From Hymenobacter nivis (GTDB lineage: Bacteria; Bacteroidota; Bacteroidia; Cytophagales; Hymenobacteraceae): DNA of 64,000 bases. Of the stretch, positions 676-15,902 are shown piece by piece. The stretch covers positions 1,736,001 through 1,800,000 of the forward strand of contig NZ_CP029145.1 of NCBI RefSeq assembly GCF_003149515.1. The letters are read 5' to 3'. Position numbers and translations under genes: made by a program. Within the stretch, counting starts at the first letter, position 1; each line of letters starts with the position of its first letter. The notes below the pieces were generated by a model. The model saw nothing but the letters and a program-made list of their open reading frames with translations, searched no databases and was not told the origin of the DNA.

Positions 676-1176
676 CTACGCACTAAGTTGGCGGAGTTGC
701 TGGTACATGGCTTTTAGCCCGACGGTGTAGAGTTGGGCTTTGAGACGAAAATGGCCGATGCCGCACTTGAGCTTAAGCACTTCGAGTTTGGTGTAGGCCA
801 GCACGGCAGCGAAGAAGTGCGTGGCTTGCGTGGCCAGCGCCTTGGTGGGCGATTTGCCCATCGACGCGTTCTGTTTGAGCGACTTGTGGTACTCTTCCAC
901 TTTCCACCGTCTCTGGTAAATCGTGGTCAGTTGGGCTTGGTCCAGGTCGGTGTCGCTGCTGACCAGATACAGGATGCCTTGGCTACCGTCTTGGTTTGTA
1001 AAGACTTGCCTGGTTACAAGCACCGCTTCCTGGACGGCCCGCAAATAGACGTGCAAGGGTTGCGTACCGGCAAATACCAGCGACTGCACGGGCTGGAACT
1101 GCCCTTGGGCGCGCGCTGCTTCGCTCAGGGCCACGGCGCGGCTGCTTTCGAGGGCAAAAATAAAGTAGTGGCCCTG
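676..1176 (-). pseudogene. IS4-like transposase, C-terminal fragment
   Basis: This open frame encodes the C-terminal third of the same transposase family as 1-607. It begins around FIFALESSRAVALSEA, equivalent to the last residues visible at the window edge, and contains the IS4 signature Y-x2-R-x3-E-x6-K (YQRRWKVEEYHKSLK) that carries the catalytic Glu. Synonymous codons differ from the neighbouring copy at the shared ALESSR segment, so this is a diverged second element rather than a recent duplicate. The frame stays open to 1389, but upstream of about 1176 it no longer resembles a transposase, so the N-terminal two thirds are missing. It is probably non-functional. Confidence 0.65.
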
Positions 1177-1428
1177 CCCGGCGCGGCGACAAACAAGGAC
1201 GAAGGCGTGGTGGTGCCCGCCCGGGCGCACCGGCAGATTTGGGTGGCCGTGCCGTTGGTACCGGCCGATTCCTTGCGCCAGCTCCGGGGGGCCCTGGCCA
1301 CTGGCAGCCAAGGCAATAATTCGCTGCGGCTGGTTGTACAGGTAAGCTACGCGGGGAAGCACGATGCGGGCGCATCCAACCGCGTGCACCTGTACCGGTA
1401 CCTTCAGCGCCTGTCACCGCCAAAGTAG
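1176..1428 (+). other. Possible 3' remnant of a gene truncated by the transposase fragment
   Basis: An open frame on the + strand continues to a stop at 1428 and ends with a polar, strand-like sequence (LRLVVQVSYAGKHDAG, VHLYRYLQRL) that looks more protein-like than the opposite frame. I do not recognise the family. It lies exactly where the transposase similarity stops, so it could be the surviving 3' end of a gene disrupted by the element. A chance open frame in GC-rich DNA is the main alternative. Confidence 0.2.
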
Positions 1429-3582: not shown

Positions 3583-3647
3583 CGCCGGGCCCCGCACGGG
3601 TATTTTTTTGGAAAGCGTCGAGCCAGTTGGCCCGGCGCTTTTTCTTT
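3581..3647 (+). terminator. Hairpin with long loop and T tract after the small secreted protein
   Basis: AGCGCCGGGCC (3581-3591) pairs perfectly with GGCCCGGCGCT (3632-3642), followed by TTTTC. The loop is about 40 nt, so a simple intrinsic terminator is only one reading. The ATG at 3627 lies inside this structure, which argues that the next gene starts further downstream. Confidence 0.5.
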
Positions 3648-3731: not shown

Positions 3732-5789
3732 TTGCAATCGATTGCCCTTTCTAAACGCAGGATTTTGATTACTTCTTTACTACCGCGTTTGCCCTCGGGG
3801 CCCCGGCTTTGCGTGGCCTGGGCCTGCTGGCTACTGCTTGGGTTGGCCCGCACCAGCTACGGGGCCCCGGCCAGCGATACGCTGTGTACCCGCGCCGCCG
3901 TCGAAGATATAGTGGTGACGCCCAGCTTCTACAGCGTGCTGGAAGACCCCACCGGCACCCTGACGCTGGCCGACGTGCAACGCCCCGCCAACGCCCGCCG
4001 CTTCGTGCTGGGGGCCCGCACGGCCAGCAGCATGCAGCACGTGGGGGCAGTATACTGGGTGCGGCTGCCGGTGAGCAACCAGGATTCGACCGGCCGGCAC
4101 TGGTACCTGGAGCTGTTCGACTCGCACATCAACGACATCACCTTTTACGGCCCCGACGGCCAGTGGCACACGGGGGCCGACGTACCGTTTAACAACCGCC
4201 GCTTTCGCTACAAGAATTACCTGTTCCGGCTGCCGCTGATGCCGAGCCGCACCGAGGTATTTTACCTGCGGCTGCAATCCAACTCCAAAACCAGCTTCCT
4301 CAGCCAGCTGCGCACCGAAGAGTTGCTGGACGGCTACTTCCAAACTGTGTACGGCCTGCTGGGCAGTTTCTACGGGGTGCTGCTCATCATGGTGGTGTAC
4401 AACTTGTTCATCTACCTGCTGACCCAGGACCAGAACCACCTGCGGTACGTGCTGTACGTGCTGAGCTGCGGCCTGCTGTTCCTCTCCGAAGACGGCCTGG
4501 GCTTCCAGTACATCTGGCCCGAGCTGCCCTGGCTCAACCAGGCCGTTATTGCCGGGGCCCCCATCCTACTGCTGCTCACCTTCAGCTACTACGCCCGCTA
4601 CTTCCTCGACGCGCCCCAGCGCCTGCCGCGCTTTGATCCCGCGGTGCGGGCCGTGGTGCTGGGCAGCGCCGTCCTGCTGCTGGTCGACGCGGTGTGGGTG
4701 CGGTCGGGCCTGGGCTTTTGGCTGTATTTACTGCCCTACGGCCTCATTTATTACGAAGCCGTGCGCGCCTACCAGCTTGGGTTTCGGCCGGCCCGCTTAT
4801 TTCTACTGGCCCAGGCCCTGGTATCCGCCAGCCTGTTGTTCCTGATCCTGCGCAAGCTGGGCATCGACGCTTTGACCACTACGTTTACTGTGTACAGCCT
4901 CAACATGGCGTTTGTGGCTGAAGTCGTGGTGCTGTCCTACGCATTGGGTGAGAAGATCAAAGCCATTAAGGACGACACCATCGAGGCACAGAAGCAGCTG
5001 GTAGAACAGCTGCGCAGCAAGCAAGTGGACCAAGGCCTGCTTGTCGAACAGCTCCACCAAAACGAAATACTTAAAGATCAGCTCAATTTCGAGCTAGAAG
5101 CCCTGGTGGTGCAGCGTACCCAGGAAATAAAGCACAAGAGCGAAACCATCGCGGCGCAGAATCGGGGGTTGCTCGAAGCCAACGGCTTGCTCGCGTTGCA
5201 GTCGGCGGCCATAGCCAAGCTCAACACCGACCTGCAGGTAGACCTGCACAATGCACAGGCGGCACGGGTCACCGCCCAGGAAATGAACTTTGGCGAGTTC
5301 AGCCAGATCTACCCCGACAAAGACGCTTGCTTGGTGTACTTGGCCAACTTGAAATGGGCTGCTGGGTACCAGTGCCGTAAGTGCGGCCATGGCAAATACT
5401 GCGAGGGCCGCGAGCTGCACTCCCGGCGGTGTACCCGTTGCCGCTACGTGGAGTCAGCCACCGCCTATACCCTACTGCAAAAATGCAAGTTTTCCGCGGT
5501 AAAAGCTTTGTATGCCGTGTTCCTTTTGCATACCCACAAAGGCCAGTACGCCACTTCACAAATGAGCCAGTTACTGGACCTGCGACAGGCCACCTGCTGG
5601 AGTTTTAGCCAAAAAACAATCGATGCCATTAAACGCCGAAGTGCCGAGGCAGACTACAATGAGCAGGAGGATTGGACCCACGTTTTACTAGCTACCGCCA
5701 GCGAACATGACGATTCGGTTGCGCTTCAGCCCGTAGCTACCACCGCAACGGTGAAAAAGAAGGCGCCGCCAGATATGGAACGGGCATAA
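3732..5789 (+). CDS. 7TM-DISM receptor fused to an IS1595-type zinc-ribbon/HTH domain
   Basis: From a TTG at 3732 (after a GGGGG tract) this is a 685-residue membrane protein; an ATG at 3627 is possible but sits in the preceding hairpin. Order: signal peptide (AWACWLLLGLARTSYGAPA), an extracellular 7TMR-DISMED2-like domain (about 50-195), seven transmembrane helices (about 205-420), and a cytoplasmic coiled coil (about 425-515). The C-terminal domain starts near MNFGEFSQIYPDKDACLVYL. It has a zinc ribbon C548-x2-C551-x15-C567-x2-C570 and a helical segment ending in LDLRQATCWSFSQKTIDAI, the layout of the N-terminal DNA-binding part of IS1595/ISXO2 transposases. No DDE catalytic domain, histidine kinase or cyclase domain is present. 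It lies just upstream of the PUL on the same strand. A regulatory role is inference. Confidence 0.82.
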   Translation: MQSIALSKRRILITSLLPRLPSGPRLCVAWACWLLLGLARTSYGAPASDTLCTRAAVEDIVVTPSFYSVLEDPTGTLTLADVQRPANARRFVLGARTASSMQHVGAVYWVRLPVSNQDSTGRHWYLELFDSHINDITFYGPDGQWHTGADVPFNNRRFRYKNYLFRLPLMPSRTEVFYLRLQSNSKTSFLSQLRTEELLDGYFQTVYGLLGSFYGVLLIMVVYNLFIYLLTQDQNHLRYVLYVLSCGLLFLSEDGLGFQYIWPELPWLNQAVIAGAPILLLLTFSYYARYFLDAPQRLPRFDPAVRAVVLGSAVLLLVDAVWVRSGLGFWLYLLPYGLIYYEAVRAYQLGFRPARLFLLAQALVSASLLFLILRKLGIDALTTTFTVYSLNMAFVAEVVVLSYALGEKIKAIKDDTIEAQKQLVEQLRSKQVDQGLLVEQLHQNEILKDQLNFELEALVVQRTQEIKHKSETIAAQNRGLLEANGLLALQSAAIAKLNTDLQVDLHNAQAARVTAQEMNFGEFSQIYPDKDACLVYLANLKWAAGYQCRKCGHGKYCEGRELHSRRCTRCRYVESATAYTLLQKCKFSAVKALYAVFLLHTHKGQYATSQMSQLLDLRQATCWSFSQKTIDAIKRRSAEADYNEQEDWTHVLLATASEHDDSVALQPVATTATVKKKAPPDMERA

Positions 5790-5877
5790 ACTAGAAATTA
5801 CTACTTGCCTGCATTCCTTATTATATTGTTTTTTAATAATTTTTCATCAGTTGCTTTTGCCTGCTAATACTGAATCA

Positions 5878-5899
5878 AGCCGGAAAATCCGGCTTTTTC
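5878..5899 (+). terminator. Intrinsic terminator after the receptor gene
   Basis: AGCCGGA (5878-5884), a three-A loop, TCCGGCT (5888-5894), then a run of T. It separates the receptor transcript from the PUL. Confidence 0.8.
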
Positions 5900-6356
5900 T
5901 TGTGCTATAAGCGTATTCGCTGCTTGTTATTAAAGCTTAGAATAGCCTTGTGGAGCCATTCAGACGTATTTTTGAGATGGACATTTGCAACAACTCAAAA
6001 TACCTTTGGCGTTCCTAATAGATAAATACGCTATTCGTTCTCTCCTCTTTGTGTGATAGACAATCCTCTTGCTATCTACAAACTTTCTACCTGTGCGGCC
6101 TTGGCTTTACAGAACCGGACACTTGAAACGTGTACCGCTTATAAGCGCAGGTGCTTACCCAAATTTTTAGGCCCAGGACTTTTACCCGCGGCCATCCCAT
6201 CGGAGCAAGCCCGCTCACAAAAAATAGTAAAATTTAGAAGCAATCGTTTGTTCAAACCGATGGATCTCTACGTATTTTTGGCGCCCTGCTCTAAGTAGTT
6301 CTTGCTTCTCCTGCTCGTCTACGCTTTTCACTTTTCCATCCACACCTCGTTTTTTT
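5900..6356 (+). promoter_or_regulatory. AT-richer leader region upstream of susC, with a candidate -7 box at 6001-6008
   Basis: This 457-bp stretch has no convincing gene; the 81-codon frame at 6053-6298 lacks any recognisable feature. TACCTTTG at 6001-6008 fits the Bacteroidota -7 consensus TAnnTTTG. No TTTG lies at the expected 19-20 bp upstream; the nearest is 5984-5987. If used, the susC mRNA would have a leader of roughly 340 nt, long enough for post-transcriptional control. Confidence 0.35.
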
Positions 6357-9300
6357 ATGGATCCAACCCGTTACTTTTCCACTTTCCGCAAAGCCGCGCT
6401 GGTAGCCGCTTGCGGATTGCCAGCCTTGGCCAGCCTCGCTGCACCGGGGCCCCTGCCGGGCCAGAGCTATGCGCAGAAACTTGTATCAAAGCGCCCGCCC
6501 GTAACCGTTTCGGGTCGGGTAATCCAAGCCAACGGCGAAGCTCTCCCCGGGGTGACCGTGCTGGTCAAAGGCACTGCCCTGGGTGTCAGCACCGATGCCA
6601 ACGGTGGCTTTACGCTAAGTGCTCCGGAGGGCAGCACCCTGGTATTCAGCTACGTAGGTTATCTTCGACGGGAAGTTGCCGTTACCAGCGCCAGTACGCA
6701 GCTCAACATCACCCTGACGGCCGACGTGGCGGCGCTGAATGAAGTAGTAGTGGTCGGTTACGGCACCCAGGAGCGCGGCAGCGTAACGGGAGCCATTTCG
6801 TCCGTTAACGGAGCAGAGTTGGTGCGCCAGCCGGTGGCCGATGCTACCCAGGCTCTTCAGGGCAAAGTTTCGGGCGTAACCATTACTTCCAACGGCGGGG
6901 CCCCCGGCGGCGCCGCTGGTACTTCGGTGCGCATCCGCGGCATAACGTCGGCCGGCAACAACAACCCACTGTACGTAGTCGATGGCTTTCCGCTACCGGA
7001 TAATGGCGATAGCCAGCTCAGCAACATCAGCCCGAACGACATCGAGACGATTGACGTCTTGAAAGATGCCTCTGCTACCGCTATTTACGGGGTGCGGGCA
7101 GCCAACGGGGTCGTCCTCATTACCACCAAACGTGGCAAAGTCGGTAAGACCAGCGTCAACGTGGACGCTTACCGGGGAGTGCAGTCCGTGGCCCGTCGGC
7201 TGGACCTGCTTAATGCCGAACAGTATGCGGTAATCAACAACGAGGCCCGCATTGCGGCCGGCCAGCCCATCGCACTGGATAAGCTACGCAACCCGGCTGC
7301 GCTGGGTCAAGGCACCGACTGGCAGGACTTAATGTTCCGCCGGGCCAAGATTCAGAACTACTCGCTCTCGGCCACCGGGGGCAGCGAAAAGGCTCGCTAT
7401 GCGCTGTCGGGCACGTACTTCCAGCAGGACGGCGTCATCCTGGGCTCCAATTTCGAGCGCTTCACGCTCCGCGCTAACGGCGACGTGCAGCTAAGCCCTA
7501 TTTTTAAAATCGGCAACAGCATCTCGCTAACCCACTCGGAAGACCGCCAGATTACGAGCAACAATGGCGAGTACGGTGCCGTGCAGCAGCTATTGCGTAT
7601 GCCGCCCACCGTGCAGCCCTACCGGCCCGATGGCTACTGGTATCAGCCCAACAGTCCCATGGATAACTTCACGGAAGAGAACCCGTTGGCTACTTCCCTG
7701 CGGGCCAATCAAAAGTTCGTTCGCAACCGGGCCACCACTACGTTTTATGCCGAGCTGGAGCCAGTGAAAGGCCTACGCTTCCGGACTAACGTCGGGGCCG
7801 ACCTTGTTTTCGAGAACTTCAACCAATTTGCTCCCAAGGGCCCGGAGTTGGCCGGCTACACCCAGCGCTACATCACCGCCGGGGCGGGCGCTACCGCCGG
7901 CTATTCCCCAAGCTACCTGATTGAGAACACGGCCACCTACGACCGCACTTTCGCCGAAAAGCACCATGCCACGCTGTTGGTAGGGCAGTCGGCGCAGGAA
8001 TTTAACTACAGCAACGTAGAGGCTTACCGCACGGGCTACCTGCGCAACGACCTGCAAACCATCAACGTGGGGCCCATCAATACGCTGCTGGCCAACGCGG
8101 GCACCATCGACCCAGCCCGGCACCTATCCAGCTACTTCGGCCGCTTAAATTACGATTACGCCGGCAAATACATTTTCCAGGCCACTGCCCGCTACGACGG
8201 TTCCTCGCGCTTCGAGCCAGGCCACAAGTTTGGTTTCTTCCCCAGCGCGTCGGTGGGCTGGCGCATTTCGGAAGAGGAATTCCTGAAGGGCAACACCACC
8301 ATCAGCAACCTCAAGCTGCGCGCCGGCTACGGCCGCGTGGGCAACGAGCTGAACGCCGGACGTTTCGCTTACCTGTACTCTATCAACTTCGGCGCAGTTT
8401 ATCCCTTTGGATCGGACGGTACCATCAACACGGGGGGCGCGCCGACTCGCTTATCCAACCCCAATCTGCGCTGGGAGTACAACGACCAGGCCAACATTGG
8501 TCTGGAAATGGGTTTCCTGGATAACCGCATCGAGGCGACTATCGACCTCTACAACCGCAACTCGCCCAACCTGATTGCGCCCGTGCCGCAATCCCTCGTG
8601 TCGGGCACTTACGAGTCGGTGAACTCCAACGCCGCCAGCGCCTACAACCGGGGCATCGACTTCTCGCTGACTTCGCACAATTTCGTCGGTTCGAGCGGGG
8701 CCCTGACCTGGACAACCACCTTCAACATATCAGCCTACAAAACCCGCCTGGTGTCGTTGGGAGCCGGTATTCCCTACAACGGCCCACAGTATTTGAGTGG
8801 TAATATCGTGCGCTACGATGCCGGCCATGCCTTGGGGTCTTTCTACGGCTACGTGGCCGATGGTCTGATTCAGAGCAAGGAAGAGCTGAACGCCCTGAAC
8901 GCCGGGGCCCTGGCTGGCACGGCCAAGTCCGCCAATTACCAGAACGCGGGCACCGCTCCTGGCGACATTAAATTCCGGGACCTGAACGGCGACGGCGTCA
9001 TCACCGAAGCTGACCGCACTTTTATCGGTAATCCGAACCCGAACTTTACGTTTGGCCTCACCAACACCCTGGGCTTTAAGGGCTTTGATTTGAGCTTCTT
9101 TATCCAGGGCGTGCAGGGCAACGATATATACAACCTGAACCGCTACATCACGGAAAACGCTCTGTACGGCACCACCAACGGCACCACCAACGTACTGAAC
9201 CGCTGGACCGGTACCGGCACCAGCAACGATATGCCGCGCGCCATCGTGGGCGACCCCAACAACAACCTGCGGATATCGACCCACTACATCGAGAACGGCT

Positions 9301-9521
9301 CTTATGTGCGCCTCAAAAACCTGACGTTCGGCTACACACTTCCGCGCAACCTCATGGGCCGCGTCGGAGCTTCGCAGCTGCGCGTGTACGTCACGGCCCA
9401 AAACCTGGTGACGCTGACCAAATACACCGGCTACGACCCGGAAGTGAGCGCCAGCGGCATTGACTTAGGCATCTACCCGCAAACGCGCGTGTTCATGGGC
9501 GGTGTCAACATCGGGTTTTAA
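6357..9521 (+). CDS. SusC-like TonB-dependent outer-membrane transporter
   Basis: This 1054-residue protein has the full SusC architecture: signal peptide (about 1-38), a CarboxypepD_reg-like domain (about 48-122, VSGRVIQANGEALPGVTV), a TonB-box region at 128-138 (LNEVVVVGYGTQ), a plug domain with VRIRGI, PLYVVDGFPL and SAAIYG-like SATAIYG, and a C-terminal 22-strand barrel ending in aromatic GF. It would import oligosaccharides across the outer membrane using TonB energy, capped by the SusD-like lipoprotein encoded 27 bp downstream. The glycosidases that follow suggest beta-glucan fragments as the ligand (inference). It is the first gene of the PUL. Confidence 0.95.
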   Translation: MDPTRYFSTFRKAALVAACGLPALASLAAPGPLPGQSYAQKLVSKRPPVTVSGRVIQANGEALPGVTVLVKGTALGVSTDANGGFTLSAPEGSTLVFSYVGYLRREVAVTSASTQLNITLTADVAALNEVVVVGYGTQERGSVTGAISSVNGAELVRQPVADATQALQGKVSGVTITSNGGAPGGAAGTSVRIRGITSAGNNNPLYVVDGFPLPDNGDSQLSNISPNDIETIDVLKDASATAIYGVRAANGVVLITTKRGKVGKTSVNVDAYRGVQSVARRLDLLNAEQYAVINNEARIAAGQPIALDKLRNPAALGQGTDWQDLMFRRAKIQNYSLSATGGSEKARYALSGTYFQQDGVILGSNFERFTLRANGDVQLSPIFKIGNSISLTHSEDRQITSNNGEYGAVQQLLRMPPTVQPYRPDGYWYQPNSPMDNFTEENPLATSLRANQKFVRNRATTTFYAELEPVKGLRFRTNVGADLVFENFNQFAPKGPELAGYTQRYITAGAGATAGYSPSYLIENTATYDRTFAEKHHATLLVGQSAQEFNYSNVEAYRTGYLRNDLQTINVGPINTLLANAGTIDPARHLSSYFGRLNYDYAGKYIFQATARYDGSSRFEPGHKFGFFPSASVGWRISEEEFLKGNTTISNLKLRAGYGRVGNELNAGRFAYLYSINFGAVYPFGSDGTINTGGAPTRLSNPNLRWEYNDQANIGLEMGFLDNRIEATIDLYNRNSPNLIAPVPQSLVSGTYESVNSNAASAYNRGIDFSLTSHNFVGSSGALTWTTTFNISAYKTRLVSLGAGIPYNGPQYLSGNIVRYDAGHALGSFYGYVADGLIQSKEELNALNAGALAGTAKSANYQNAGTAPGDIKFRDLNGDGVITEADRTFIGNPNPNFTFGLTNTLGFKGFDLSFFIQGVQGNDIYNLNRYITENALYGTTNGTTNVLNRWTGTGTSNDMPRAIVGDPNNNLRISTHYIENGSYVRLKNLTFGYTLPRNLMGRVGASQLRVYVTAQNLVTLTKYTGYDPEVSASGIDLGIYPQTRVFMGGVNIGF

Positions 9522-9548
9522 TCCTTTCTAATTTCCACTTGTACAGTC

Positions 9549-11099
9549 ATGACTATCTCAAAATTTACGTGCGGGGCCTTTCTGCTATCGCTCGGGTTGC
9601 TGGGCGGCTGCACGGCTAAGTTTCTGGACGAGGCCCCGGCCGACCAGATAACCGACGCTAACTTTTACCAGACCCAGCAGGACGCCATCCAGGCCGTGAC
9701 GGCCGCGTACAGCGAGCTGACTAAGGAAGGCCAGTACAATGCCGCCATGTGGGCCTTCGACATATGGGCCGATATATCGAGTACGGGCGGCGACGACGGC
9801 AACGACGGCATCGAGTACAAGCAGCTCGAAGCCTTCAGTATTCCGACCACCAACTTTATAGCTACCCGGCTTTGGGGCGGCTCGTTCATCGCGCTTCAGC
9901 GGGCGAACATCGTCATCCAGAAAGTGCCGGGTATTGCCAACATGGACCCTGTTATTCAGAAGCGCTGCATCGGCGAAGCGCAGTTTCTACGGGCCAAAAT
10001 GTACTTCGACCTGGTGCGAGCCTACGGCGACGTGCCCCTGTTCAAGGCCCCGCCCACTAGCCCAACGGCGGTTAACATCCCCCGGACGCCCGCGGCCGAC
10101 GTGTACAAGCAGATTGAGCAGGACCTAACCGATGCCATCGGCAACCTACCGCTTTCGTACAGCGGCGATGATTTGGGCCGGGCTACTAAGTGGGCCGCTA
10201 CGGGGCTTTTGGCCAAGGTTTACATTACCGAAGGCAAGAAAACGGAGGCCGCCCAGCGGGCCCGCGAGGTCATTAACAACTCGGGCAAGACCATGTGGGC
10301 CAACTACGCCGACAACTTCAAGGTCGAGAACGGGAATAATAACGCCAAAGAGTCGCTGTTTGAAATACAGTACGTGAGCGGCCGCAACCAGTACGACCGT
10401 AACCAAGTGGGCTCAGCGATGAATGAGTTTTTTGGGCCCCGGGGCGCTAACCAAACGCCTGGCAGCGGCTACGGCTTCAACACCCCGGACCCAGACTTTG
10501 TGAGCGGCTACGAAGCGGGCGACACCCGCCGAGCCGCCACCGTATGGGCCCCCGGCGACACGTACCCCGACGGCAGCAAGGTGGCTTCCAAGGCCACCGG
10601 ATCGCCATTTGGCTATAGCTGCAGGAAGTGGTTCGTCGGCAAGGTGAACACCAACATCTGGGATTCGGGCCTGCACGTGCCCGTGTTGCGCCTGGCCGAA
10701 ATGTACCTGATTGTAGCCGAGGCCGTGGGCCCTACCACAGAGGGCCTGGAGGCCATTAATAAGGTGCGCCGCCGCTCGTTTGGCCTCGACTATACGGTGC
10801 CATCGGCGGCCCATGACCTCACGGCCGCTACCGGGAACTTCACCAACGCAGTGCTGCGGGAGCGTAAATACGAGCTAGCGTTTGAGTTTGACCGCTGGTT
10901 TGACATGAAGCGCGCTGGCACCCTTTACCCGACGCTGACGGACCACGCCTTTATTCCGCGCATGACGCAGCAGGCGGCAACGCTCAAGGGCATTGCCCCC
11001 AACGTGCACGGAATCCCGACCCAGAACAACTTGGTGCTACCCATCCCACAGACGGAAATCGACACCAACCCCGGCTTGGTGCAAAACCCTGGCTACTAG
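9549..11099 (+). CDS. SusD/RagB-like nutrient-binding surface lipoprotein
   Basis: This 516-residue lipoprotein has the lipobox LGGC (Cys21) and the typical SusD start FLDEAPADQITDANFYQTQQDA. TPR-like helices follow (FLRAKMYFDLVRAYGDVPL), and the C-terminus has the family sequence ERKYELAFEFDRWFDMKR and ends in an NPGLVQNPGY-type tail. It sits on the outer surface as the lid of the preceding SusC partner and binds glycan. The 27-bp gap to susC implies co-transcription. Confidence 0.95.
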   Translation: MTISKFTCGAFLLSLGLLGGCTAKFLDEAPADQITDANFYQTQQDAIQAVTAAYSELTKEGQYNAAMWAFDIWADISSTGGDDGNDGIEYKQLEAFSIPTTNFIATRLWGGSFIALQRANIVIQKVPGIANMDPVIQKRCIGEAQFLRAKMYFDLVRAYGDVPLFKAPPTSPTAVNIPRTPAADVYKQIEQDLTDAIGNLPLSYSGDDLGRATKWAATGLLAKVYITEGKKTEAAQRAREVINNSGKTMWANYADNFKVENGNNNAKESLFEIQYVSGRNQYDRNQVGSAMNEFFGPRGANQTPGSGYGFNTPDPDFVSGYEAGDTRRAATVWAPGDTYPDGSKVASKATGSPFGYSCRKWFVGKVNTNIWDSGLHVPVLRLAEMYLIVAEAVGPTTEGLEAINKVRRRSFGLDYTVPSAAHDLTAATGNFTNAVLRERKYELAFEFDRWFDMKRAGTLYPTLTDHAFIPRMTQQAATLKGIAPNVHGIPTQNNLVLPIPQTEIDTNPGLVQNPGY

Positions 11100-11132
11100 C
11101 CCTTCTTCACCGACTATTCAGCCTGATTTAAC

Positions 11133-11936
11133 ATGAAATATATTTGGAACAAGGCGGCTTGGGCACTATTGGCCGGCCCGCTACTTCTTACTGCCTGCGA
11201 CAAAAACGACAAAGGGCAGCTGAACGGCCCCGTGCCGACGGCCACCTTCACCACGTCCGCGCCCAAGTCTGTGGGGCTTACCACGTCGGTTACCTTCACC
11301 AGCACCGCCACCGATGCCGCTTTCTACGAGTGGAGCTTTGGGGATGGCACGCGCGGCACGGGCCAAACCGTGACCCACATTTACAAAACTGGTGGCACCC
11401 TCAAAACCGTGCTGCTTACCTCCGGCAAGGGGGGCACGGGCATCTCTGACACGGTGAAAGTGGTGTTACCTCCCATCACCGACGCGGTGAAGCAGTTCCT
11501 GACGGGCGGCTCTTCCAAAACCTGGAAGCTGGACAACAGCGTAGATTCCACCATTGTGGTGGGCCCCAGCGATAAAGACCCGTACAGCTACTACCACGAC
11601 GGCAAAGCGGGCAGCCTACCCGCTTGCCAGGCCGACGACGAGTTCACCTTCAGCACGGCCAATATGTACACTTACGACGCGAAGGCCCAAACCTTCGTAG
11701 CCGGTGGGGTGGGCTGCTCGGATCCGCGCTCGGGTACGTCCGACTACACGTTCGGGCCGGCCGTTGGGTCGGGCTACGCCATGCTTGAATTCAAAAAAGC
11801 CGGCACCTTCATTGGCGTGACGGACGCGCCTGATTTGATCTATCGCATCGTCAACATCGACGCCCAGCACATGCGGCTGCGCGCCGGCAAGGCGAGCGGC
11901 AACCTGGTGTTTGAAATGCGGCTGGTAGCGAAATAA
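11133..11936 (+). CDS. PKD-domain surface lipoprotein of the PUL (SusE-position glycan-binding protein)
   Basis: A 267-residue protein with lipobox LLTAC (Cys22). Residues about 36-110 form a PKD domain (YEWSFGDGTRGTGQTVTHIY). The rest begins with FLTGGSSKTWKLD and resembles the lipocalin-like C-terminal domain common in PUL-encoded surface proteins. Its place directly after susD is where SusE/SusF-type surface glycan-binding proteins are encoded. A role in holding glucan at the cell surface is inferred from position and domains. Confidence 0.75.
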   Translation: MKYIWNKAAWALLAGPLLLTACDKNDKGQLNGPVPTATFTTSAPKSVGLTTSVTFTSTATDAAFYEWSFGDGTRGTGQTVTHIYKTGGTLKTVLLTSGKGGTGISDTVKVVLPPITDAVKQFLTGGSSKTWKLDNSVDSTIVVGPSDKDPYSYYHDGKAGSLPACQADDEFTFSTANMYTYDAKAQTFVAGGVGCSDPRSGTSDYTFGPAVGSGYAMLEFKKAGTFIGVTDAPDLIYRIVNIDAQHMRLRAGKASGNLVFEMRLVAK

Positions 11937-11981
11937 CTACTGCGGCCGAACGACCGGCCGCGTCTATTACTTGAGCAGTAT

Positions 11982-12878
11982 ATGAAATTCTTCTTTTCCC
12001 GTTGCCAGAGGAACGGGGCCAGCATTATGCTGGCCCTGAGCCTGATGGCCTGCACCGAAACTAAATCGGGCCCCACTCCAACACCGGTGCCCCCAACGCC
12101 CGTTGCGCCAACGCCAACGCCGGTGGCCACCAATTCCGAGGCCCGGGACTACGCCCAGTACACGGAGCTTGTCTGGGGCGACGAGTTTGACGGTGCGGCG
12201 GTGGACCCGACTAAGTGGGGCTACGACCTCGGCAACAACAACGGCTGGGGCAACAACGAGTTGGAGTATTATACCAACTCGACCGAAAACGCTTCTCTGA
12301 GTGGGGGCAACCTCGTCATCCAGGCTAAAAAGCAAGCCCAAGGGGGCCGCGATTACACGTCGGCCCGGATGCTGACCAAGGGCAAGCAGGACTTTAAGTT
12401 TGGGCGCGTCGACGTGCGGGCTAAAATGCCCAAGGGCCAGGGCATCTGGCCCGCCATCTGGATGCTGGGCTCCGACATCGACCAGAACAACTGGCCGAAG
12501 TGCGGTGAGATTGACATGATGGAGCTGCGCGGCCAGGAACCCTCCAAGATCCTCTCTACCATGCACTACCCCGACGCCGCGGGGGCCCACCTCTACAAAG
12601 GTGTCAGCAATATCACGCTGCCCAACAGTGCCAGCTTCGCCGACGATTTCCACCTTTTCAGCGTGGTGCGTAGCCAGAACCAGATGCGGTTCTTTCTCGA
12701 TGGCACGCTGTACTACACGTTTTCGAGCAGCGACGCTTCCATCTACCCGTTCAACAACCCGTTCTTTTTGGTGCTGAACGTGGCCGTGGGCGGCGATTTC
12801 CTCGGCAGCCCCGACGCCAACACCGTATTTCCGCAGCAAATGACGGTGGACTACGTGCGCTACTACCAATACAAGTAG
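11982..12878 (+). CDS. GH16 family endo-beta-glucanase (laminarinase-like) lipoprotein
   Basis: A 298-residue protein with lipobox LMAC (Cys24), then a Pro/Thr-rich linker of PTP repeats (30-50) that would extend the enzyme from the membrane. The GH16 domain has WGDEFDG at 65-71 and the catalytic signature E-I-D-M-M-E, with nucleophile E176, D178 and acid/base E181 (GEIDMMELRG). WPAIWMLG and a C-terminal VDYVRYYQY strand also fit the family. The extra Met between D and E is typical of the laminarinase/lichenase branch. It is predicted to cut beta-1,3- or mixed-linked glucan at the cell surface. Confidence 0.92.
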   Translation: MKFFFSRCQRNGASIMLALSLMACTETKSGPTPTPVPPTPVAPTPTPVATNSEARDYAQYTELVWGDEFDGAAVDPTKWGYDLGNNNGWGNNELEYYTNSTENASLSGGNLVIQAKKQAQGGRDYTSARMLTKGKQDFKFGRVDVRAKMPKGQGIWPAIWMLGSDIDQNNWPKCGEIDMMELRGQEPSKILSTMHYPDAAGAHLYKGVSNITLPNSASFADDFHLFSVVRSQNQMRFFLDGTLYYTFSSSDASIYPFNNPFFLVLNVAVGGDFLGSPDANTVFPQQMTVDYVRYYQYK

Positions 12879-12894
12879 GTTTTTTTTCTGCGCT

Positions 12895-12941
12895 GGCCCA
12901 CCGCCTGCTGCTCCGGTTGGGAGGCGGCCGGGCGGTGGGCC
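12895..12941 (+). terminator. Strong GC hairpin after the GH16 gene
   Basis: GGCCCACCGCC (12895-12905) pairs with GGCGGTGGGCC (12931-12941). No T run follows, but a T8 tract precedes it at 12880-12888, so as a terminator it would work better on the minus strand. It may cap or attenuate the mRNA. The rest of 12942-13206 shows no gene. Confidence 0.4.
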
Positions 12942-13206
12942 TTGGCTTGCCGCCCCACGGCCAGCATCCTGGGGCCCTGCTTAAGTAGCTGCACAAAAGC
13001 AACCGAACTACGGGTTGTCAGCGGCTAGCCGCCAGTTACTAGTGAATTGCAAATCAACTAGCAGCTGATAGCTAATGCCTGATAATTCGGTGAGTACTGG
13101 GCTGTGCGCTTAAGCGCCGCAAGCTGCCGGGCCAGCAAGCTGCTGCTTCGCCGGGGCCCCGTCCTGAACGAAAACCGGCCGCTCTTTTAACCTGCTCTAT
13201 TTTCTT

Positions 13207-14766
13207 ATGAAAACGATCCTTTACCGGCAGCTCGCGGCCCGGTGGCTGCTTCGTTCGTGGGTGGTGGCGCTGGCTTTGGGGGGAGTGGCGCAGGCCCAAA
13301 CCAAAAGCCCCAAGCGCGGCCTGGCTTACGACTACAAATCTGCCGCCGACTTGCAGGCGCTGGCCCCCGGCACGAGCTGGTGGTACAACTACACCTCCGT
13401 ACCCAATGCCAGCGTGGCGGGCATGTACGGGGGCCTGGCCGTCGACTACGTGCCCATTCAGTGGGGCGCCCGCCTGGGCAATGGCCCGGTGACGGCCGAC
13501 CAGCTCGCCGCCAACATTCCGGCCGGCACGCAGTATTTGCTGGGGTTCAACGAACCTAATTTCCTTTCCCAGAGCAACCTGACGCCGACGCAGGCCGCGG
13601 CCATCTGGCCGGTGCTCCAGGAAGTGGCCCGCCGCAAAAAGCTCAAGCTGGTATCGCCCGCCCTGAACTACTGCGGAGGCTGCGTGCAGGAGAACGGCGT
13701 AACCTACTATTCCCCCACCCAGTACCTGGACGCCTTTTTTGCGGCCTGCCCCAACTGCCAGGTCGACTACATCGCCCTCCATACCTACGTGTGCGAAGAG
13801 CAGTACCTGCGCCAGAAAGTAGCGGAGGTCAAAAAGTACAACAAGCCCATCTGGCTCACGGAGTTTGCCTGCGGCGACGCGCCCACGGCCCAGATTACCC
13901 TGGCCGCGCAGAAAAAGTACATGCTGGATGCCGTGAACTACCTGGAAAACGAACCAGACATTTTTCGGTATTCGTGGTTTTCGGGACGTAATAACGAGAT
14001 TCCCAACATCAACCTGCTGGGCGCCGATGGCCAGCTCACCGCGCTGGGCCAGCAGTACGTGGGCCTGCCGTTCAACGGGCCGGCCAACGACTTGAACCGG
14101 CTCACGCCGGTGGCCACCACCGCCTCGTCGAGCGAAAGCGGCACCACGGGGGCCCCCAGCGCGACCGACCGCAACATCAACTCCCGGTGGTCGAGCACCT
14201 TTGCCGACCCGCAGTACCTCCAGCTGGATTTTGGCGAGGCAAAGCGGTTTACGCGGGTGAAAATTGCCTGGGAAGCGGCCTACGCCAAGGATTACCAAGT
14301 GCAAACTTCGCTCGACGGCACCACCTGGGGGCCCCTGCTGACGGTGCTGGACAGCGACGGCGGGGTAGATGACCTGACGGGCCTCGCCGGCCGCGGCCGC
14401 TACCTGCGAGTGTACGGCACCCGGCGCGCCACGGCTTTCGGCTATTCCATTTACGAAATAGATGCGTACGGCACCGCCGATACGGCGCTGGCCACGGCGC
14501 CGGCCACCGGCCCGCCGGACCCGGCGGCCGGGCTACGCCTCTACCCCAACCCAGCGGCCACGGAGCTGCACCTGGCCTTGCCCGCCGGGGCCCTGGCTCG
14601 GAGCCTGGCAGTGATGGACGCCTTGGGAAGAACGGTGCTCGCGGGCCGGGACCTGGGGCCAGGAGCTGGGGCCACCCTGAACATTGCGGCGCTGCCCGCG
14701 GGCCTGTACGTGGTGCGCGTGGCAACGGCCGGCGGGCAGCTCAGCCAACGCTTCCTAAAACCCTAG
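13207..14766 (+). CDS. GH128-like beta-1,3-glucanase with discoidin-type module and T9SS tail
   Basis: A 519-residue secreted enzyme. The signal peptide ends near AQAQ (30). Residues about 35-285 form a small TIM barrel of the GH128/Asl1-like glycosyl-hydrolase type, with acid/base E116 in LLGFNEPNFL and nucleophile E219 in IWLTEFACGD; SWWYNY is the usual aromatic platform. Residues about 295-425 resemble an F5/8 type C (CBM32-like) jelly roll (INSRWSS, YLQLDFG, YLRVYGTRRA). The last 75 residues (LRLYPNP...GLYVVRV) form a type A T9SS sorting domain, so export is through the type IX system. Family members act on beta-1,3-glucan, matching the GH16 gene upstream. Confidence 0.85.
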   Translation: MKTILYRQLAARWLLRSWVVALALGGVAQAQTKSPKRGLAYDYKSAADLQALAPGTSWWYNYTSVPNASVAGMYGGLAVDYVPIQWGARLGNGPVTADQLAANIPAGTQYLLGFNEPNFLSQSNLTPTQAAAIWPVLQEVARRKKLKLVSPALNYCGGCVQENGVTYYSPTQYLDAFFAACPNCQVDYIALHTYVCEEQYLRQKVAEVKKYNKPIWLTEFACGDAPTAQITLAAQKKYMLDAVNYLENEPDIFRYSWFSGRNNEIPNINLLGADGQLTALGQQYVGLPFNGPANDLNRLTPVATTASSSESGTTGAPSATDRNINSRWSSTFADPQYLQLDFGEAKRFTRVKIAWEAAYAKDYQVQTSLDGTTWGPLLTVLDSDGGVDDLTGLAGRGRYLRVYGTRRATAFGYSIYEIDAYGTADTALATAPATGPPDPAAGLRLYPNPAATELHLALPAGALARSLAVMDALGRTVLAGRDLGPGAGATLNIAALPAGLYVVRVATAGGQLSQRFLKP

Positions 14767-14853: not shown

Positions 14854-15902
14854 AGGACTTACGCAAAAAGTGTAACTTGAAAGGAAAAGCCATGAAAGTG
14901 ACGGCACAACTGTACGGGCAGTTTTTGGTGAGCAGCCAGGTCAACTACACGGGGACGTATCTGGCCGAGCATCTGGAGGGCCTCTCGCACGACAACGTGC
15001 GCTATTTTCTCAAAACCCGGCGTTTCACCCCCCGCCAGCTCTGGCAGCAAGTACGCCCACAGGTGATGCTCAGCGCGCGGGGCTACGTCCTGTTTGACGA
15101 CACGGTGCTCGACAAGCACCACAGCCGGCGCATCGAACTCGTACGCCGCCAGTACAGCGGCAACGCCCACGGCGTGATTGCCGGCATCGGCCTGGTGACG
15201 TGTGTGTACGTCAACCCCGAAACCGACCAGTTCTGGCTCATTGACTACCGCCTTTTCGCCCCCGACACCGACGGCAAGACCAAGCTCGACCATGTGGCCG
15301 ACATGCTCGGGCAATTGGCCCCGCGCAGTATCCCATACCGCACGGTGCTCATGGATAGCTGGTACGCCACCACGGCCCTGTTCAAGTGGCTGCTGGACGA
15401 AGGCAAAACATTTTACTGCCCGCTGAAAAGCAACCGGCTCGTCGATGATTCCGGCGGCCAGCAGCCCTACCAGCCCGTGGCCTGCCTGTGCTGGTCGGCC
15501 GCCGAAGTAGAAGCTGGCAAAATCCTGAAAGTGAAGGGCATGCCCAAAGATTTCAAACTGAAACTCTTCCGCGTACTGGTGTCCACCCACCGGACGGACT
15601 ACCTCCTCACCAACGAGGTTGAGCCCTTGCACACGGCCGCTGCCGAACACGAAAGCAGCGTCCGCTGGACGATTGAGCAGTTTCACCGCGAACTCAAGCA
15701 ACTCACCGGCGTGCAGGCCTGCCAGTGCCGGCTGGCCCGCAGTCAGCGCAATCATATTGCCCTGGCCGTGCGCGCTTGGACCTGCCTTAAACAAGCCGCC
15801 TACCAAACCAAACAAACCGTCTATCAGCTCAAACAAGGCTTTTTGGATGAGTATATGCGACATGAATTACGCCAGCCTTCGCTCGCGTTTGCGTAAGTCC
15901 TA
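14854..15902 (+). mobile_element. Complete IS4-like insertion sequence
   Basis: Terminal inverted repeats are AGGACTTACGCAAA (14854-14867) and its exact complement (15888-15901). The direct repeat ATTAGT at 14848-14853 and 15903-15908 is the probable target duplication. It carries one full transposase gene whose stop codon lies inside the right terminal repeat. It looks intact. Confidence 0.85.
14877..15896 (+). CDS. Transposase of the IS4-like element
   Basis: A 339-residue DDE transposase; a second ATG at 14892 (MKVTAQLYG) is an equally good start. Catalytic residues are in YVLFDDTVLDKHHS (D1), VLMDSWYATT (D2) and RWTIEQFHRELKQLTG (E within R-x3-E-x6-K). IELVRRQYSGNAHGVIAGIG is typical of a group common in Cyanobacteria and Bacteroidota, variously listed as IS4 or IS701. 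The reading frame is intact, with no stops or shifts, so the element may be active. It is not closely related to the fragments at 1-1176. Confidence 0.9.
   Translation: MKGKAMKVTAQLYGQFLVSSQVNYTGTYLAEHLEGLSHDNVRYFLKTRRFTPRQLWQQVRPQVMLSARGYVLFDDTVLDKHHSRRIELVRRQYSGNAHGVIAGIGLVTCVYVNPETDQFWLIDYRLFAPDTDGKTKLDHVADMLGQLAPRSIPYRTVLMDSWYATTALFKWLLDEGKTFYCPLKSNRLVDDSGGQQPYQPVACLCWSAAEVEAGKILKVKGMPKDFKLKLFRVLVSTHRTDYLLTNEVEPLHTAAAEHESSVRWTIEQFHRELKQLTGVQACQCRLARSQRNHIALAVRAWTCLKQAAYQTKQTVYQLKQGFLDEYMRHELRQPSLAFA

Follow-up and report, generated by a model that had tools for sequence, protein, structure and literature searches.

What does a membrane receptor do when its cytoplasmic end resembles the DNA-binding part of a transposase, and does it act on the sugar-uptake genes beside it? 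The question arises from one gene in the window, a 64,000-nucleotide stretch of Hymenobacter nivis contig NZ_CP029145.1 (Table 1). Other 7TMR-DISM members typically have kinase or cyclase outputs. An earlier note, made from the letters of this DNA, had instead described a fusion of a 7TM-DISM receptor, a coiled coil and an IS1595-type zinc ribbon next to a glucan polysaccharide utilisation locus (PUL).

Table 1. Features of the receptor gene, the following intergenic region and the adjoining PUL (window coordinates).
Feature	Position	Strand	Basis
Receptor gene: DISMED2, 7TM-DISM, coiled coil, IS1595-type zinc ribbon, HTH-like helices	3732..5789	+	
7TMR-DISMED2 sensor domain, residues 68-189, periplasmic location expected	3933..4298	+	Pfam, RetS match
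7TM-DISM membrane domain, residues 209-407	4356..4952	+	Pfam and model
Coiled coil / long helix, residues 411-515	4962..5276	+	Model
IS1595-type zinc ribbon, residues 529-572, Cys 548/551/567/570	5316..5447	+	Pfam, six-frame search, relatives
Three HTH-like helices after the ribbon, residues 589-638, aligning with the IS1595 transposase N-terminal part	5496..5645	+	
Conserved element M2, TTGTTTTTTA on the + strand, 77 bp before M1 here	5821..5837	-	
Terminator-like hairpin and T run between receptor gene and susC	5877..5895	+	
Motif M1, proposed operator; core TGTGCTATAAGCGTA at 5901-5915	5898..5918	+	
Bacteroidota-type promoter candidate: degenerate -33 region, -7 box TACCTTTG (6001-6008)	5977..6008	+	Relatives' alignment
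SusC-type TonB-dependent transporter	6357..9521	+	
SusD-type glycan-binding protein	9549..11099	+	
PKD-domain protein	11133..11936	+	
GH16 glycoside hydrolase	11982..12878	+	
Glycosyl hydrolase catalytic core (PF11790), F5/F8-type domain, sorting tail	13207..14766	+	

Receptor architecture and probable origin of the output domain

The receptor frame is open over 685 codons plus stop; it extends upstream to a TTG at 3627, and its start codon is uncertain. Pfam identified a 7TMR-DISMED2 sensor domain (PF07696, E 1e-26, 93.9 bits against a cut-off of 22) and a 7TMR-DISM_7TM membrane domain (PF07695, E 8e-36, 124.4 bits against a cut-off of 29). The sensor domain matched the periplasmic domain of RetS both by profile (E 3.4e-11) and in a comparison of the structure model (Z 15.0, rmsd 2.5 over 131 residues). 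This model was computed with AlphaFold2 from a 32-sequence alignment, as a prediction without alignment gave a pLDDT of 43 and was set aside. It contains a long helix at residues 384-487, a low-confidence stretch at 483-515, and a ribbon with three following helices at 531-640, where pLDDT is 81-88 by blocks of ten. No histidine kinase, receiver or AraC-type domain was found in the protein by the Pfam scan, and the NosR response-regulator model of NCBIfam matched the coiled coil at 12.8 bits (cut-off 400).

A zinc-ribbon match in the C terminus had been set beforehand as a check, and it was found. In the protein Pfam scan, Zn_ribbon_IS1595 (PF12760) covered residues 529-572 with an E-value of 1e-4 and 22.6 bits, below the cut-off of 25.4; in a six-frame search of the genome with the same profile, the ribbon reached 27.7 bits, above it. 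The cut-off was also passed by nine of ten scanned C-terminal domains of relatives, the exception being L093 with 22.5 bits. Beyond the ribbon, the NCBIfam IS1595 transposase model runs on weakly over residues 585-639 (18.1 bits, cut-off 75). Together, Pfam, six-frame search, NCBIfam and model confirm the fusion. All four zinc cysteines are present in the window protein, in 59 of 60 relatives of a first set and in all 61 of a second, and the only relative lacking them, L085, has a truncated receptor. A sequence search with the C-terminal domain returned no clear relative of solved structure.

The earlier note was also right that the catalytic domain is missing, because 120 relatives end 80-121 residues after the cysteine motif, with no DDE domain found there, and the alignment of the regulator domains with transposases stops short of the catalytic part. 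In a tree of 97 domains, 75 receptor copies, two copies from propeller proteins and one solo protein formed a single clade (support 100/98), and 19 transposase-like sequences fell apart from it. Most likely, a single capture from an IS1595-type transposase supplied the DNA-binding domain, which was afterwards transferred to other sensors; since the tree is unrooted, we infer the direction from transposase to regulator as the simpler of the two. Recent capture from the window genome's own IS1595-type transposase (L003) is ruled out by the tree, in which this protein groups with the transposases.

Recurrence and gene neighbourhood

Among 61 Hymenobacter genomes (the window genome and 60 others), the receptor is intact in 52, truncated in one (G003) and without a full-length match in eight. 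A later, partly overlapping sample of the order held 32 genomes of the genus, of which 30 had a match and two (G306, G314) did not. Among named relatives, Hymenobacter coccineus (88% identity) and H. nivis (82%) come nearest. The zinc cysteines, all four, are invariant in the 52 intact copies. Across these, conservation is highest in the ribbon/HTH part, with a mean pairwise identity of 79%, followed by the coiled coil (71%), the 7TM domain (67%) and DISMED2 (54%); the two ends of the protein show 27-28%. In G003, the truncated receptor (L085) runs into a partial GH16 gene, as judged by eye, SusC and SusD are missing from the locus, and a SusD relative was not found at 1e-60 in the genome. We regard this as one deletion or an assembly error and left it out as independent evidence. 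Six of the eight receptor-less genomes likewise have no SusD relative at 1e-60; the other two, G035 and G036, have one at 54 and 56% identity, a level like that of the second copy of G031 (57%).

The adjacent glucan PUL was confirmed as a SusC-SusD-PKD-GH16-glycosidase cluster at 6357-14766. Transposase-like frames of another type, named by eye, flank it at 676-1389 (-) and 14877-15896 (+). Throughout the genus, SusC lies downstream of the receptor in 51 of 52 loci, as the next gene in 31, after a GH3 gene in 16 and after another frame in four; SusD follows SusC in 50 of 52, and contig ends account for the missing SusC or SusD genes in L063 and L083. In relatives, GH3 may be part of the cluster, and the upstream side holds a GH5 gene with CBM6 or else a large GH16 gene, the latter recognised by eye.

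Outside the genus, the distribution of the domain is patchy. With the C-terminal domain as query (1e-8), 122 of the 291 genomes searched in the order had a match, as did 44 of 296 in a phylum-wide sample that overlaps with the first, and of 13 listed Hymenobacteraceae genomes of other genera, 12 had no match and one a weak match. Phylum-sample matches outside the order were mostly frames of up to 370 residues, that is, transposase-like; receptor-sized frames with a domain match were seen in G579 and G470. All receptors in the order and phylum samples and among the best 80 of 565 matches came from Bacteroidota. The zinc ribbon as such was present in six of 14 control genomes, some far from Bacteroidota, and exceeded the cut-off in two. 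In three genomes (G172, G262 and G244, with 14, 14 and 12 matches, some of them maybe transposases), the domain family looks expanded.

We examined 60 loci of other genera, chosen among the best-scoring domain matches, which encode 61 domain-bearing proteins (48 at 70% identity). Our own profiles identified 7TM and DISMED2 domains in 58 of these and Pfam in one more (L202). The remaining two, L195 and L206, carry Reg_prop and Y_Y_Y domains, a propeller sensor of the kind found in hybrid two-component systems (HTCS), fused to the same zinc-ribbon domain and without 7TM-DISM; L206 sits directly before SusC-SusD. The fusion occurs in other families of the Cytophagales and in Chitinophaga. Recurrence of the fusion beside susC had also been set as a check beforehand, and it was found in many genomes, within the genus and beyond.

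In the loci of other genera, SusC occupies position +1 in 19 of 58 and SusD position +2 in 19 of 56, and a co-directional SusC was seen at none of 641 other positions in the 60 loci (19/58 versus 0/641, Fisher p 1e-22, uncorrected for relatedness). Among eight further loci outside the genus, SusC was the next gene in two (L087, L092). Genes for PF10091 proteins, which we take to be GH144-type, GH3 enzymes and LamG proteins often follow, and a GH9 gene adjoins the receptor in L086, L089, L165 and L175, an assignment based on Pfam only for L086. Labels for SusC, SusD and GH genes in other genera were given by similarity to 14 chosen proteins, so the GH counts are lower bounds. SusC-SusD directly follows the receptor in six of 11 loci from outside Hymenobacteraceae (Chitinophaga japonensis, Chitinophaga sp. 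GbtcB8, Siphonobacter aquaeclarae, Dyadobacter luteus, Dyadobacter sp. CY312 and Flexithrix dorotheae), and in four of the remaining loci a GH9 or GH16 match lies no more than about 5.3 kb away. Scanned with Pfam, 48 of the 55 unlabelled neighbours outside the genus showed mixed functions with few carbohydrate families, and we therefore do not claim PUL regulation for all family members. Overall, the link between receptor and PUL is strong.

A conserved motif at the locus promoters

An EM motif search on 51 intergenic regions, the training set, yielded the motif M1 with the consensus.CGTGTG..GTAAG.GTATA. and a log-likelihood of 549 versus 84 in shuffles (width 18), a comparison that flatters the motif, as the shuffles preserve nothing but base composition and were run from fewer starts. 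Best sites in the training regions scored 15.9-33.5 bits, the window's own site being weak at 18.9 bits. M1 precedes the SusC or GH3 gene in Hymenobacter. Outside the training regions, sites of at least 17 bits lie before GH5, or before a GH16 ahead of GH5, in 19 of 24 GH5 loci, with five lacking one; further matches at this threshold in about 1.0 Mb amounted to one stray site (L039) and a second copy beside the trained site in L050. The receptor gene has no M1 directly in front, and where GH5 is upstream, the site before GH5 also precedes the receptor. In a set of 80 named loci, which overlaps with those above, M1 lies within 1.2 kb after the receptor in 64, equal to 64 of the 69 Hymenobacteraceae loci; the five of these without it are L249, L270, L276, L278 and L282, three of which (L249, L278, L282) are short pieces.

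The nine loci L085-L093 showed no M1 site. For two further groups with SusC at +1, f18 (seven loci) and f19 with GH144-type genes (nine loci), motif searches gave nothing firm: the motifs outscored shuffles, again composition-only and run from fewer starts, but at shifting places. M1 therefore rests on one genus. Terminal inverted repeats of related IS elements (few candidates, for example L135 and L146) showed no likeness to M1 by eye.

Around M1, a second conserved element, M2, keeps a spacing of about 79 bp in relatives. The -33/-7 positions of the promoter candidate are conserved in the relatives' alignment, and we take the Bacteroidota-type -7 consensus to be TAnnTTTG. Evidence for the hairpin before M1 is weak, because four terminator-like sites were found against 3.7 in shuffles.

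Genome-wide, exact M1 cores numbered 155 in the 52 receptor-bearing genomes of the genus (reversed control, 37), 54 of them inside the 20-kb receptor loci, compared with two in the eight receptor-less genomes (reversed control, three; Mann-Whitney p 7e-6, uncorrected for relatedness). This contrast is weakened because the eight receptor-less genomes have either no such PUL or just a distant SusD, and because ten genomes of other genera hold 13 exact cores (control, seven). The window genome (5.03 Mb) contains a single exact match to the core pattern, and the reversed control also gave one, so only the place of this core is telling. In several genomes of the genus, TGTGCCGTAAGYGTA-type cores also occur outside the receptor locus, for example at G058:C4:432526 and G049:C144:40598, and such sites may mark further target genes.

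Proposed function, alternatives and known systems

The protein couples a conserved sensor-to-ribbon architecture with a fixed place before SusC-SusD and with M1 at the promoters of the locus. We consider it likely that it is a transmembrane regulator of the one-component type, which controls a beta-glucan (laminarin-like) locus by binding M1 and activating from the membrane, and the receptor probably switches the adjoining sugar-uptake genes directly. The earlier reading as a membrane-bound one-component regulator with a mobile-element DNA-binding part is supported at the sequence level, by M1 at the promoters, the single clade of the domain and its second sensor type.

For the ligand, dimerisation, DNA binding and sign of control, we infer the following course. 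The RetS-like periplasmic domain would bind a glucan fragment released by the enzymes of the locus, presumably of beta-1,3-glucan, as suggested by the GH16, GH3, GH5 and PF11790 enzymes, whose specificities we take to point to this polymer. The 7TM bundle and coiled coil would relay the change to a pair of zinc-ribbon/HTH domains forming a dimer in the cytoplasm. Bound to M1, ahead of the -33/-7 promoter, this dimer would switch on SusC-SusD together with the GH16, GH3 and GH5 genes, with the regulator still in the membrane. More broadly, we lean towards the view that the IS1595 zinc-ribbon/HTH domain, captured once, became a portable output on at least two kinds of sensor (7TM-DISM and Reg_prop/Y_Y_Y), regulating glucan loci of Cytophagales and Chitinophaga from the membrane through a dedicated operator (M1 in Hymenobacter).

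A variant of this reading, whose odds overlap with it, makes the protein a repressor, or has its C-terminal domain released by proteolysis. The linker at residues 483-515, a low-confidence part of the model, might be where cleavage takes place. However, the distance from M1 to the -7 box downstream of it is about 100 bp, which is usual for an activator, and known PUL regulators are mostly activators; we rate the variant as rather unlikely.

Slightly less probable still is that the receptor senses the glucan but another regulator binds M1, with the ribbon/HTH domain contacting RNA polymerase or a partner protein. Protein binding is common among zinc ribbons, M1 was seen in Hymenobacter alone whereas the receptor family extends further, and 12 of the 52 genus loci have a kinase/LytTR-like pair, named by eye, on their upstream side. 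Yet no neighbouring regulator-like gene is as constant as the receptor, since the genes upstream of it differ by clade. Moreover, conservation is not confined to the ribbon (81% identity among the 52 copies) but extends to the helices after it, which have a mean identity of 73% and hold invariant residues.

That the receptor gene merely adjoins the PUL and regulates something else could be argued from the 39 of 58 loci outside the genus without SusC at +1, but is very unlikely, given that SusC is kept downstream throughout the genus despite a rebuilt upstream side and that the same arrangement recurs in other families and in Chitinophaga. A recent chance fusion of an IS to the receptor gene, functionless and suggested by the sub-threshold ribbon score in the protein scan, is ruled out for practical purposes, because the fusion recurs in several families and is conserved down to its invariant cysteines, and the genome's own IS1595-type transposase stands with the transposases in the tree.

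Several known systems share parts of this design. In Bacteroides PULs, hybrid two-component systems combine a membrane sensor and a DNA-binding output in one chain beside SusC/SusD, the same plan as in the window protein, and their propeller and Y_Y_Y domains are those of the two relatives L195 and L206; the window protein differs in having no kinase, receiver or AraC domain. CadC and ToxR are membrane-bound one-component regulators with the sensor outside and the DNA-binding domain inside, again in one chain, whereas the window protein has its DNA-binding end at the C terminus, a 7TM domain instead of one helix, and a different DNA-binding domain. Eukaryotes have well-described transcription factors that derive from transposases, for example FHY3/FAR1. 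With IS1595-family transposases, the window protein shares the zinc ribbon and following helices, but it lacks their DDE catalytic domain and is fused to a receptor.

Among 7TMR-DISM receptors, RetS has a similar DISMED2 sensor and the 7TM-DISM domain, and the window protein departs from it by an output of DNA-binding type in place of a kinase or cyclase. The ChiS DNA-binding domain is carried by several architectures in Proteobacteria, 7TMR-DISM among them (PMC8092284), which likewise gives a 7TMR-DISM receptor with a C-terminal DNA-binding domain; that domain is a helix-sheet-helix variant from Proteobacteria, in contrast to the transposase zinc ribbon of the window protein, and the passages on it do not mention a PUL. 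The earlier note needs one correction here: 7TM-DISM with a DNA-binding domain has this precedent, and the new elements are the transposase-type domain and the PUL setting. The terms transposase and zinc ribbon were not found in the signalling-helix paper (PMC1592074), and open-access literature on 7TMR-DISM, IS1595, PF12760 and PUL regulators contained no such fusion among the matches listed. One-chain membrane regulators are known, and the transposase-type output and the PUL setting are what is new here. If the proposed function is true, it adds a regulator class for polysaccharide utilisation and provides a concrete candidate operator, promoter and protein domain, as well as a one-chain glucan-sensing switch for synthetic biology.

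Two observations concern relatives of the domain without a sensor. The solo protein of the regulator clade (L132, genome G491) has 137 residues and consists of the zinc-ribbon/HTH domain only, lacking both a sensor and a catalytic part. Among transposase-like sequences, those closest to the regulator domain are 14 matches in G493, in frames of 306-339 residues with differing scores; judged by eye, one of them, L130, seems to have lost its acidic catalytic residues, and these frames may therefore be a second domesticated family, in this case full-length.
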